A DNA stretch of 64,000 nucleotides from Rubripirellula tenax (GTDB lineage Bacteria > Planctomycetota > Planctomycetia > Pirellulales > Pirellulaceae), in assembly GCF_007860125.1 (NCBI RefSeq), contig NZ_SJPW01000003.1:830764-894763 (forward strand), in the 5' to 3' direction. The stretch's first letter is position 1. Each line of letters starts with the position of its first letter. Shown in pieces: positions 23,411 to 30,512 of this stretch. A program made the translations under genes and the position numbers. The notes beneath the pieces were generated by a model. The model was not told where the DNA came from and did not search any database. It worked only from the letters and a program-made list of their open reading frames with translations.

Positions 23411-23618
23411 TGTCTGTCCAGAAATCGCATGGCCGCAGGAATTACGACTAATTTCGAAGAAAAGCTCCCCGAAGATCGAACCCGCAAGCGGGTTCGCGCG
23501 TTGGAATTGTTGACTAAAAGCAATTTCAAACGCGAACGTGGGAGTCAACCTATGGCGCGGTCTTGAAGGCTAATGAGGCGTCGATACGACCTTACGCACC
23601 CAAAGCTACCACGAACCA

Positions 23619-24245
23619 TCAATTGGCCGCGTAAACTCGCGCCCTGGCGAGACGACACCCCGCGCATTCGGCAACGCAGTGTTCAATCAATACATTGCTG
23701 CACATCACGGGATAAAGACCATAGGCACCGTTTGCTGCATCAGGCCCGCCCGTCCACCAAGTCCGAACGCGCCGAATCGTTAAGCCCTCGCAGTCCTGCA
23801 ACTTGATCGCGTCACCCGGCGTATCTTCAATCGTCAAATCTTCCAGCAGAAATTTACTGGACTTGATTTTTAGGCCTTCCCCACCCTTGCCGGCTCCGAG
23901 TTTGGCAAAGTTTAGGATCGTCTTTTCCATTCCCTTGCCATGGATCGTCACGTCGTTGACGCCATCGAGAGACAACGTCCCGTCGAACTCAAACGTTCCT
24001 TCTGAAAACTCAATCACATCACCGGGCTCAGCCAAAACCAAAGCCTCCTGAGCTTCCGTTTGAGCATCAGGCCCCGGTTGAATGACAACTCGAACTACTG
24101 CATCCTGCTCAGGCACATTGGCCGTCGAGTTGCCCGAGCCTGCATTTCCACCATCCGCGGTGGGATCAGGCGCTGGCGAGGAGTCTGCGCATCCCGTCAC
24201 AAGCACGATAGCAGAGATGAGGAGCAAAACGTATGCAAGTTTCAT
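23619..24245 (-). pseudogene. Parallel beta-helix lipoprotein, C-terminally truncated
   Basis: From ATG 24245 the protein begins with a signal ending in LVTGC (C19 lipidated). An Asn/Gly-rich linker leads to a pectate-lyase-like right-handed beta-helix (EALVLAEPGDVIEFSEGTF, then repeated rungs DGVNDVTIHGKGMEKTIL, FLLEDLTIEDTPGDAIKL and GLTIRRVRTWWTGG). The family normally continues for 150 or more residues. Here the match stops at IEHCVAECAG, near 23660, and is replaced by 13 unrelated residues before a stop. The same short tract is where the opposing gene ends, so a deletion or excised insertion is likely. Confidence 0.75.
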
Positions 24246-26669: not shown

Positions 26670-26774
26670 TAGCAGCCTGTTGAAAAAGGGGCTGACCCTC
26701 TCCGACGTTTCGAATTCACAATGTTTCAGCAACGTCTCCAAAGGGTCAGACCCCCCTTTTTCAACAGGCTGCTA
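26670..26774. repeat. MITE-like inverted-repeat element
   Basis: A 105-base element bounded by near-identical inverted ends. The left end is TAGCAGCCTGTTGAAAAAGG and its inverse begins at 26774, with about 30 paired bases interrupted only by a 2-base difference in the G run. The interior (CGACGTTTCGAATTC and TTTCAGCAACGTC) continues a weaker dyad. There is no coding capacity and only one copy in this window. It fits a non-autonomous transposon or REP-like element. The interval 26494-26868 holds no gene. Confidence 0.8.
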
Positions 26775-26868: not shown

Positions 26869-27167
26869 TCATTTGCCTTTGGCCAGTGCTGACTTGATCA
26901 GCCCGACAACGGCCATGACGACGCCGCCACCAACTCCGCCCGATGCGATACTTCCAACGATCGACGCGATATCGAGTCCACCACTGGGGCCTGCGCCGAT
27001 GCCAAGCATCCCGATCAGTTGCCCTCCAAGGCCGCCTCCGACGACTCCCGCGATCGAGTTCCAGAGAAGTCCAAGGTCTAGTTTCTTGGCCAACTTGCCT
27101 ACGATGTTGCCGCGTTGCCGCCGGCAGAGCCAGAGAGCAGTTGAATGACGAGCGGTAGAATTTCCAT
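26869..27167 (-). pseudogene. Glycine-rich small membrane-type protein broken by an 8-bp tandem duplication
   Basis: The ATG at 27167 starts MEILPLVIQLLSGSAGGN, then the frame shifts and stops. Another frame continues with NIVGKLAKKLDLGLLWNSIA, then glycine-rich GVVGGGLGGQLIGML, and a C-terminal helix ending SALAKGK. The break coincides with two tandem copies of GCGGCAAC (minus strand). Deleting one copy gives a seamless 96-residue protein with the AGGNIVGKL junction expected for this widespread, uncharacterised glycine-zipper-like family. The intron at 27181 lies just upstream of its start. Confidence 0.8.
27106..27121 (-). repeat. 8-bp tandem duplication causing the frameshift
   Basis: Two adjacent copies of GTTGCCGC (plus strand). 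Removing one restores the reading frame of the surrounding gene, so this is the mutation itself. Confidence 0.85.
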
Positions 27168-27824
27168 TGATCGAACTTTCGTGTGCGTGATTGAAATGGG
27201 GTCCATTTGAGCTCGCGAGAACTAAACCGGCACACCGAACAGGAAAGAAAAGACTTTGCTCCTGATGTCGTCGCGACTCTTGCGCTCGCAATCGGACTGC
27301 AACGGAATCAGCCGCTCGGCGGGCGGCGCCGCCAATTCGGATCCCATGCCCAGCGTTTTCGACCCACGAACGCAGCGGAAGAGCTCAATTTTCAGATAGC
27401 GGACGAGGTTACGAATCCTCTTCCCGGCCGCGAATAGTGAGGGGGACTCGTAACCTCGGAAAACGCCGGGATAAACCGGTTTGGAATAGAGAATGAAAGT
27501 TTCTTACAGTGAAATCTTAGCCAAGAACGCTGGCCCTGAGTCGTACGCTGACCGTGGTGACACGTTGGGTGTGGTATCGACAAGGGGACAACTAGGCGCA
27601 GCGAGTGAGCTCCGAAAACAGAGTTTTTCCGAATGCCGACACCGTCGAGGTTGTGGAAGGCAGTACGGACGAGGTCGCTATTGGCGAGACCGCGTTCGGT
27701 TCGGCGGAGTCAAGGAGCTGAGGCATGGTTGGAAGTTCCAAACACGAGAACCGGGAGATCCCATGAGCACGTCGGCATCAGTCACCGACGTCGGTCCGAA
27801 AACTCTAGGAAGAGGACAGCGGAC

Positions 27825-29324
27825 GTGAACGCGAGTGGGAAGTCAGATGGACCCATAGTACCGATGACATCGGCGAACAACGATGCTGCTGAAGCATCTG
27901 CGGAGTCGGTCGAGGTAAGGCGTCCAGCAAGGAGGAACACCAGCAGACCTAACCTCGACCGGACCTTGAAGCCGGGTTATCGCAGGTCACGCGGGCTGCT
28001 TGGTGTGCGTGAGACGGCGAAGAATCGCCGTGATCTCAAATTCAGCAACCTGCTGCACCACATCAACCCCGAACTGCTGACGGCGAGCTTTCACAAGCTC
28101 CGCAAGAAAGCAGCCCTCGGAGTCGATGGAATCAGTTGGCACGAATACGAGACAGACCTGGAAGAACGCATTGACGATCTTCACGGTCGAATTCACCGCG
28201 GAGCCTTCCGAGCGAAGCCATCCAAGCGGGTGTACATCGAAAAGTCTGACGGCAAGAAACGCCCACTGGGCATTCCTTCACTAGAAGACAAGATCGTTCA
28301 GCACGCAGTGCGAACGGTCATCGAGTGCATCTACGAAGAAGACTTCGTCGGTTTCAGCTACGGCTTCCGTCCCCGGTGTTCACAGCATCAAGCTCTTGAT
28401 GCGTTGGCGACCGGGATCGACGAAAAGCGAGTGAACTGGATATTGGATGCCGATATCGAAGGGTTCTTTGACAACATCGACCGTGACTGGCTGGTGAAGT
28501 TCATCGAACATCGAATCGGCGACAAACGGATCGTTCGACTGATTCTCAAGTGGCTAAACGCTGGAATCATCGAGGATACCGATTGGAGTGACAATGGTAA
28601 GGGAACGCCACAAGGTGCGATTCTTTCACCGATCCTGGCTAACGTGTTTCTGCACTACGTGTTCGATCTTTGGATCGGGCAGTGGCGAAAATGACACGCT
28701 CAAGGCGACGTGATTGTCGTCCGCTACGCGGACGACTTCGTGATCGGTTTTGAGCATGAAGCGGACGCCCGAGCGTGTTTGGAAGCCCTACACCAACGAC
28801 TCGGTGAGTTTGGATTGAACCTGCATCCGAAGAAGACTCGCCTGATCGAGTTCGGTCGCGGTAGCGCGGCCAGACGCGAGCGGGAGGGTCGAGGCAAGTG
28901 CGAGACGTTTGACTTTCTGGGCTTCACGCATGCGTGCGGAAAGACTTGGCGGGGAAAACGTTTCAAGCTACTTCGGATCACGATGGCGAAGCGCATGACT
29001 CGCACGCTGGCAGCGATCAAGGAACAACTCCGTCGTCGTCGCCACCACAAGCTGGGCCAAACTGGTCGCTGGTTGTGGAGTGTGGTTCGCGGGTGGCGTC
29101 AGTACTACGCGGTTCCAGGAAACTACGACCGGCTCAAGCAGTTCGACGACGAAGTGCAGCGTCTTTGGCTCCGCCAAATCCGCCGTCGCTCTCAACGTGG
29201 ACGAAGGGGCTGGACGTGGGATCGGCTCTCGCGATTGTACAACGCCTACATCCCGAAACCCAAAATCCTCCATCTTTACCCCAATGTTCGGCATCACGCC
29301 CGACTCAGAGCAGGAGCCGTATGA
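27825..29324 (+). pseudogene. ltrA: Group II intron reverse transcriptase/maturase with in-frame UGA
   Basis: From GTG 27825 (ribosome site AGGA upstream) the frame encodes the N-terminal RT blocks: KKAALGVDGISWHEYE, KKRPLGIPSLEDKIVQ, GFSYGFRPR, DADIEGFFDNID and GTPQGAILSPILANVFLHYV. A TGA at 28692-28694 follows IGQWRK. Without leaving the frame, translation would resume with HAQGDVIVVRYADDFVIGF, containing the catalytic YADD, then the thumb/maturase domain (WRQYYAVPGNYDRL) and RAGAV at the end. A CGA-to-TGA transition explains the stop. The total would be 499 residues, with no endonuclease domain. The short product lacks the active site. Confidence 0.88.
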
Positions 29325-29378
29325 GGGAAAACTTCACGTACGGATCTGTGCGGGGGGCTGCCGGCGACGGCAGTCCCT
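29314..29378 (+). ncRNA. Group II intron domains V and VI
   Basis: Domain V is the 34-36-base hairpin 29314-29348: GAGCCGTATGA, a GAAA-like internal tetraloop region, then ACGTACGGATCTG, so CCGTA pairs with TACGG. Domain VI follows as GGGCTGCCG / CGGCAGTCCC with a GCGA loop and the CTACC strand carrying the presumed branch A at 29379. It begins within the last codons of the maturase ORF, as usual. Confidence 0.75.
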
Positions 29379-29423
29379 ACCGCGATTCCACTGCCCATTG
29401 CTTCACTTTCGGTTAGGCCGTTC

Positions 29424-30512
29424 TTAACGCTGAACGCGGGCGCTGCCGCCCTTGGCGAAGGCTTCGACTTCCGGCAAAACTGCTCGGCTGACGTCGCCCG
29501 TGAACGTGGTCAACAGAGCGCCGTGGGCCCAGCCCAACTTCAACGATTCTTCGGGTGATCGGCCGTTGATCAATCCATAGATCAATCCAGATGCGAATCC
29601 GTCGCCACCGCCGATTCGGTCGATCACGTCAAGTTCCGCTGTCGGCGCGACATATTCTTTGCCGTCGTGCCACAGTACGGCGCTCCACGAGTGACGGTTG
29701 GTCGAGTGGACTTCCCGCAGCGTCGTTGCAACCGCTTTGATATTGGGAAACTTGGCAACCGCGTCACCGATCATCTTGAAGAAATTCTTCGGGTCGAGCT
29801 TGCCTTCGTTGTGTTCTTCGACGTCAGGGCCTTTGATACCACAACCCTTTTGAAGGTCTTCTTCGTTGCCGATCAATACGTCCACGTTCTTAACGATCTT
29901 GGCCATCATCTCTTGTCCCTTTGCCAAGCCACCAATCGTGTCCCATAGTTTCGCTCGATAATTCAGATCGAACGATCGGACCGCACCGGCGCGACCAGCT
30001 GCTTCCATCATCTCGATGACGACTTCGGCGGTCGTTTCCGATAGCGCCGCGAAGATACCGCCGCTGTGAACCCACCGAATTCCGCCGGCGAACATCTTAT
30101 CCCAGTCAAAGTCGCCTGGCTTCAGCATGCCGCCGGCTTCGTTTGCGCGGTTGTAGAACACGACGGGAGCGCGGACGCCTTGACCACGATCGCTGTAAAC
30201 GGTCGCCATGTTCGGGCCGCGGACGCCGTCATGCTTGAAGTGCTTGTAGAAAGGCTTGACGCCCATCGCTGCAACTTGGCGCTGGATCAATTCGCCGATC
30301 GGATTGTCAACCATCGCCGTGGCGACGGCGGTTTTCAAGCCGAAGCATGACGAAAGGTTCGCGGCACAGTTGTATTCGCCGCCCGAGACGTGAACTTCAA
30401 AATTGTTTGCGGTACGAAATGGGATCGTGCCCGGGTCCAGGCGATGAACAAGTGCGCCGAGGGCACAGAAATCGATTGCTTTATCGCCGGTGGGGATGTT
30501 CAGACCGCTCAT
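29424..30512 (-). CDS. 2-keto-3-deoxygluconate kinase-type PfkB kinase
   Basis: A 362-residue cytosolic sugar kinase. N-terminal features include LGALVHRLDPGTIPF and VHVSGGEYNCAANLSSCFG (sugar-binding GG motif); the C-terminal catalytic motif is DRIGGGDGFASGLIYG. The arrangement fits KDG kinases, which make 2-keto-3-deoxy-6-phosphogluconate from uronate or aldonate breakdown. The upstream SDR gene at 30569 would supply the keto-sugar step, supporting a two-gene uronate/hexonate module. The group II intron lies just past its stop and leaves the gene intact. Confidence 0.87.
   Translation of the reverse strand: MSGLNIPTGDKAIDFCALGALVHRLDPGTIPFRTANNFEVHVSGGEYNCAANLSSCFGLKTAVATAMVDNPIGELIQRQVAAMGVKPFYKHFKHDGVRGPNMATVYSDRGQGVRAPVVFYNRANEAGGMLKPGDFDWDKMFAGGIRWVHSGGIFAALSETTAEVVIEMMEAAGRAGAVRSFDLNYRAKLWDTIGGLAKGQEMMAKIVKNVDVLIGNEEDLQKGCGIKGPDVEEHNEGKLDPKNFFKMIGDAVAKFPNIKAVATTLREVHSTNRHSWSAVLWHDGKEYVAPTAELDVIDRIGGGDGFASGLIYGLINGRSPEESLKLGWAHGALLTTFTGDVSRAVLPEVEAFAKGGSARVQR

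Follow-up and report, generated by a model that had tools for sequence, protein, structure and literature searches.

A full-length group II intron with an interrupted maturase frame

In the window (64,000 nucleotides of a Rubripirellula tenax contig, to which all plain positions refer), a group II intron carries a reverse transcriptase (RT)/maturase gene that is broken by one in-frame TGA just before the YADD box. Is this a recently lost enzyme, an error of assembly, or a stop that the ribosome can pass?

On the forward strand, 27633-29324 forms a single 563-residue frame in which TGA 28692-28694 is the sole internal stop; the terminal stop of the gene is likewise TGA. The 5′ piece of the intron's protein (IEP; 27633-28694, start codon uncertain) holds the N-terminal part and the RT blocks up to the stop (ORF list; RVT_1 profile positions 1-143), and the 3′ piece (28695-29324) holds the remaining RT with YADD plus the maturase domain (RVT_1 positions 146-204 and GIIM). 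The YADD codons lie at 28725-28736, with the TGA 30 bases ahead of them. Read through the TGA, the frame scores 352.9 bits against TIGR04416 (group_II_RT_mat; cut-off 300), which neither half alone passes. The first-pass annotation had described two maturase pieces in one frame, split only by this TGA, and the frame check and the adjoining RVT_1 parts bear it out. The domains of an RT/maturase are thus there but are interrupted by the TGA, and for this interruption the window intron was classed as a degenerate copy.

Based on similarity to introns in related genomes, the intron starts at 27457-27459 and stops at 29384-29386, and it was annotated at 27459-29386 (forward strand; 5′ end ±2 nt; about 1,928 nt), with RT, YADD, GIIM and domains 5 and 6 recognisable. 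Both ribozyme models exceed their gathering scores: RF02005, the D1-D4 part, at 27496-27719 (147.6 bits; gathering 49) and RF00029, domains 5 and 6, at 29312-29386 (49.6 bits; gathering 40), both on the forward strand. Domain V is therefore preserved together with the RT blocks, YADD and maturase domain, as the annotation had also stated.

A hairpin (CGAGGTTACGA...TCGTAACCTCG; 27404-27458, forward strand) abuts the 5′ end of the intron, as folds and an alignment of the genome's three 5′ junctions show, and is likely the insertion target. Strong hairpins, each different, directly precede all three junctions at the same relative position. At one of them (L009), the hairpin is preceded, at a distance of about 25 nt, by ...CCTTAG, which may be a gene end, as for group IIC insertion after terminators. 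The exact palindromic target had no match elsewhere in the genome, and a search for an empty site in the genus was uninformative, because conservation is limited to the downstream PfkB end. The minus strand carries both flanking ORFs (26869-27291 and 29424-30512, the latter PfkB). No host gene therefore needs splicing here, and the host should not suffer from its loss, the intron being intergenic and its neighbours oppositely oriented. Separately, the stretch at 26670-26774 (about 105 bp; AGCAGCCTGTTGAAAAAGGGG...) is a MITE-like imperfect palindrome, at 78% in self-comparison.

Relatives carry a sense codon at the TGA

Every relative compared has a sense codon at the TGA site (mostly Arg, Gln or Pro; Arg or Gln in the nearest ones), which makes the stop genuine by comparison with the family and not the product of a mis-set frame. 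The introns of Ca. Laterigemmans baculatus (L041) and Roseimaritima sediminicola (L042) are the same intron (72-79% protein identity, same ends) yet lack the TGA. The codon is CGC in L041, L012, L043 and L044, and CAG (Gln) in L042, the nearest. The proposal of a single CGA-to-TGA change is therefore only partly upheld: it fits the Arg codons of several relatives, whereas the Gln codon of the nearest one means that the ancestral codon is not fixed. Among long copies of the same subfamily in ten other related genomes (>50% identity and about 400 residues or more; hand-counted from the search table), none of 21 contains a stop. No relative was found in viral contigs, and plasmid relatives reach about 50% identity at best among the matches listed.

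Upstream of the TGA, dN/dS between the window copy and L042 is 0.10, and downstream it is 0.13; for the stop-free pair L042 and L041 the values are 0.09 and 0.14, respectively. Lineage-specific nonsynonymous/synonymous changes in the window copy number 11/19 before the TGA and 13/23 after it. As dN/dS past the stop does not exceed that of two stop-free relatives, the stop is recent relative to the split from these relatives, although with the nearest one at 79% protein identity the lineage test is coarse and bounds the age only loosely. The open downstream frame, the unchanged dN/dS and the stop-free relatives together support the recent nonsense event that had been proposed. The match in L042 (3001-4690) is split over two frames, with an overlap around query residues 157-193, so the maturase of L042 may itself be frameshifted.

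Sister copies and the assembly

A DNA search of the genome with its own intron returned three 5′ ends (window, C1:829.9 kb and C2:570 kb) and three 3′ ends (window, C4:94 kb and C2:591 kb). Outside the window, identity to the intron extends over about 127 bp, and three of the four stretches end directly at 100-N gaps. In the simplest reading the genome holds up to three copies that are nearly identical, and the interiors of two of them are unassembled; from such copies it follows that the intron was recently mobile. The end at C2:591 kb (L049, 10911-11047) joins 127 identical bases of the intron 3′ end to unrelated sequence without a gap, which could be a truncated copy or a scaffolding or assembly join.

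The assembly seems to have collapsed further copies, so it matters whether the reads bear out the TGA base: the window copy could be a consensus, in which a base error, or a stop carried by only some copies, would appear as the TGA. Three 5′ and three 3′ junctions against one interior favour such an artefact, as do partial copies that end after identical 127-bp overlaps, three of the four directly at gaps, just as the ends of a k=127 graph predict. However, the copy has no frameshift or second defect, and isolated miscalls are rare in a deep short-read consensus; an artefact is considered unlikely. Beside these gaps, a further match was seen: window 23534-23660 (127 bp) is identical to the right side of the gaps at C1:830 kb and C2:570 kb, which have the intron 5′ end on their left side, and it represents either another repeat often beside the intron or a scaffolding error.

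Read-through, recoding and the downstream hairpin

An RNA hairpin (28698-28755, forward strand) starts 3 nt past the UGA, with a minimum free energy of −32.4 kcal mol−1 for 66 nt. None of 2,000 synonymous resamplings folds equally well, and the site is the most extreme of 271 scanned ORF positions (synonymous-codon z −5.3). It is private to the window copy: in 12 relatives with sense codons the hairpin is absent (z from −1.9 to +0.7 at the site). Given overlapping windows and other strong hairpins in the ORF, its significance is perhaps of the order of P=0.01-0.05 by our own estimate. The hairpin is left as unexplained and is not counted as evidence of function.

Read-through of the UGA at a useful rate, yielding full maturase, had been offered as an alternative to a recent event. 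UGA followed by C reportedly terminates weakly, the downstream frame is conserved, and a hairpin with the strongest z of the scan (about −4.5 to −5.3) and missing in 12 relatives could assist. Yet no relative conserves the UGA, relatives carry Arg or Gln and not Cys or Trp, strong hairpins at 28827 and 28011 accompany no stop, and local pairing changes in a longer fold. The decoding apparatus also speaks against it: no tRNA-Sec was found in the genome (best match 44.2 bits, gathering 47, called tRNA-Ser by ARAGORN), no SelB scored over the cut-off (best 151.5 bits against 242), no tRNA with a UCA anticodon occurs among the tRNA loci scanned, and none of the homologues compared has Cys at the site. 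UGA recoding is therefore unsupported. Read-through did not hold up as proposed, and it retains a slim chance because of the UGA-C context and the private hairpin just downstream. That hairpin-stimulated read-through throttles the maturase, so that the intron limits itself through rare full-length protein, has a slimmer one.

Specific forms of recoding were rejected. Selenocysteine was rejected for the lack of tRNA-Sec and of SelB over the cut-off, and with no such machinery the hairpin, whose apical loop is only UAC, was not taken for a SECIS. Reading of TGA as Trp throughout is countered by the gene's own TGA end and by the lack of any relative with Trp at the site. No UGA suppressor was present among the scanned tRNAs: the ordinary tRNA-Trp has a D-arm that looks normal, and the one tRNA with a UUA anticodon would be wrong for UGA by standard pairing. 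That tRNA (ARAGORN 'tRNA-Stop'; a possible UAA suppressor) lies in L099, one of three tRNA arrays of one genome (G000; L097 at C4:762000-769000, L098 at C9:7500-12000 and L099 at C13:15000-21500), which hold 27, 17 and 29 tRNA genes, respectively, with overlapping gene content.

It is highly improbable that two cooperating halves are made by ribosomes that terminate at the UGA and then reinitiate from GTG 28710: an open frame does run from this GTG, with AAGG shortly upstream, but the GTG lies within the hairpin, the stop is absent in the nearest relatives, and the split falls within the RT palm beside the catalytic box, an arrangement with no known precedent in group II RTs.

A probable case of a recently disabled mobile intron

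The window intron is best explained as an intergenic, group IIC-like mobile intron whose RT/maturase gene was recently hit by a nonsense mutation at an Arg/Gln position before YADD (probability about 0.8 for the explanation as a whole). Translation would stop ahead of the catalytic box and leave an inactive N-terminal fragment, and this copy could presumably neither splice via its own maturase nor move in cis. The host would pay nothing, the intron being intergenic and antisense to both neighbours, and would not notice the disabling mutation because the intron lies between genes. Since the ribozyme is intact, splicing or movement in trans by an intact sister copy, if one exists, would be possible, and any intact sister copies in this genome could act in that way.

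Three points weigh against this explanation: the unexplained hairpin, the coarse lineage test, and the reported scarcity in bacteria of full-length copies whose IEP is broken (PMC4424553). In its favour, the majority of bacterial group II intron copies are described as truncated or inactivated and as located outside housekeeping genes (PMC4424553). The locus is judged to be an ordinary retroelement copy, recently disabled; neither the element nor its decay is of a new type. It captures a mobile intron shortly after enzyme loss, at an intergenic site where such loss is invisible to the host. If the sister copies had the TGA as well, mobilisation in trans or read-through would be indicated.

Comparison with known introns

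The best PDB sequence scores of the IEP (144.6, 144.2 and 137.8 bits) belong to entries that we take to be class C maturases; they are barely above LtrA (135.1), and GsI-IIC scores 116.8. No endonuclease domain was found in the window intron, as in group IIC. Its intergenic position directly after a hairpin resembles that of group IIC introns, which follow terminator hairpins or attC sites (PMC4028801, PMC4424553). Relative to the class C boundary consensus (GUNYGCC... / CCUACYCGAU; PMC4028801), the 3′ end CCTACCGCGAT and the 5′ GCCGGG are near, but the window copy begins with GAAAACGCC (AAACGCC) instead of GUNYGCC, while its relative L015 fits with GTGTGCC. Unlike the class C comparators, its protein frame is interrupted. 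By its site directly after a hairpin, the intron appears hairpin-targeting and group IIC-like.

In T. elongatus, the IEP of one copy carries an early frameshift together with multiple premature stops, and the IEP of a sister can mobilise introns that have no usable one themselves (PMC2882425). The window intron is like TeI4d (broken IEP) and the ORF-less TeI3 introns (sister IEP) in combining an intact ribozyme with no usable IEP of its own, and in having sister copies in its genome; it differs in bearing a single stop, against deletion or multiple lesions there, and its mobilisation in trans is only putative.

Integrons were also observed. At L050 (8479-14178), L051 and L053, repeats that are about 100 bp long, fold like attC sites and lie 400-700 bases apart form integron cassette arrays. 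Four integron integrases score over the cut-off in the genome, and the one at C4:100260 is separated by about 6 kb from an intron 3′ end.
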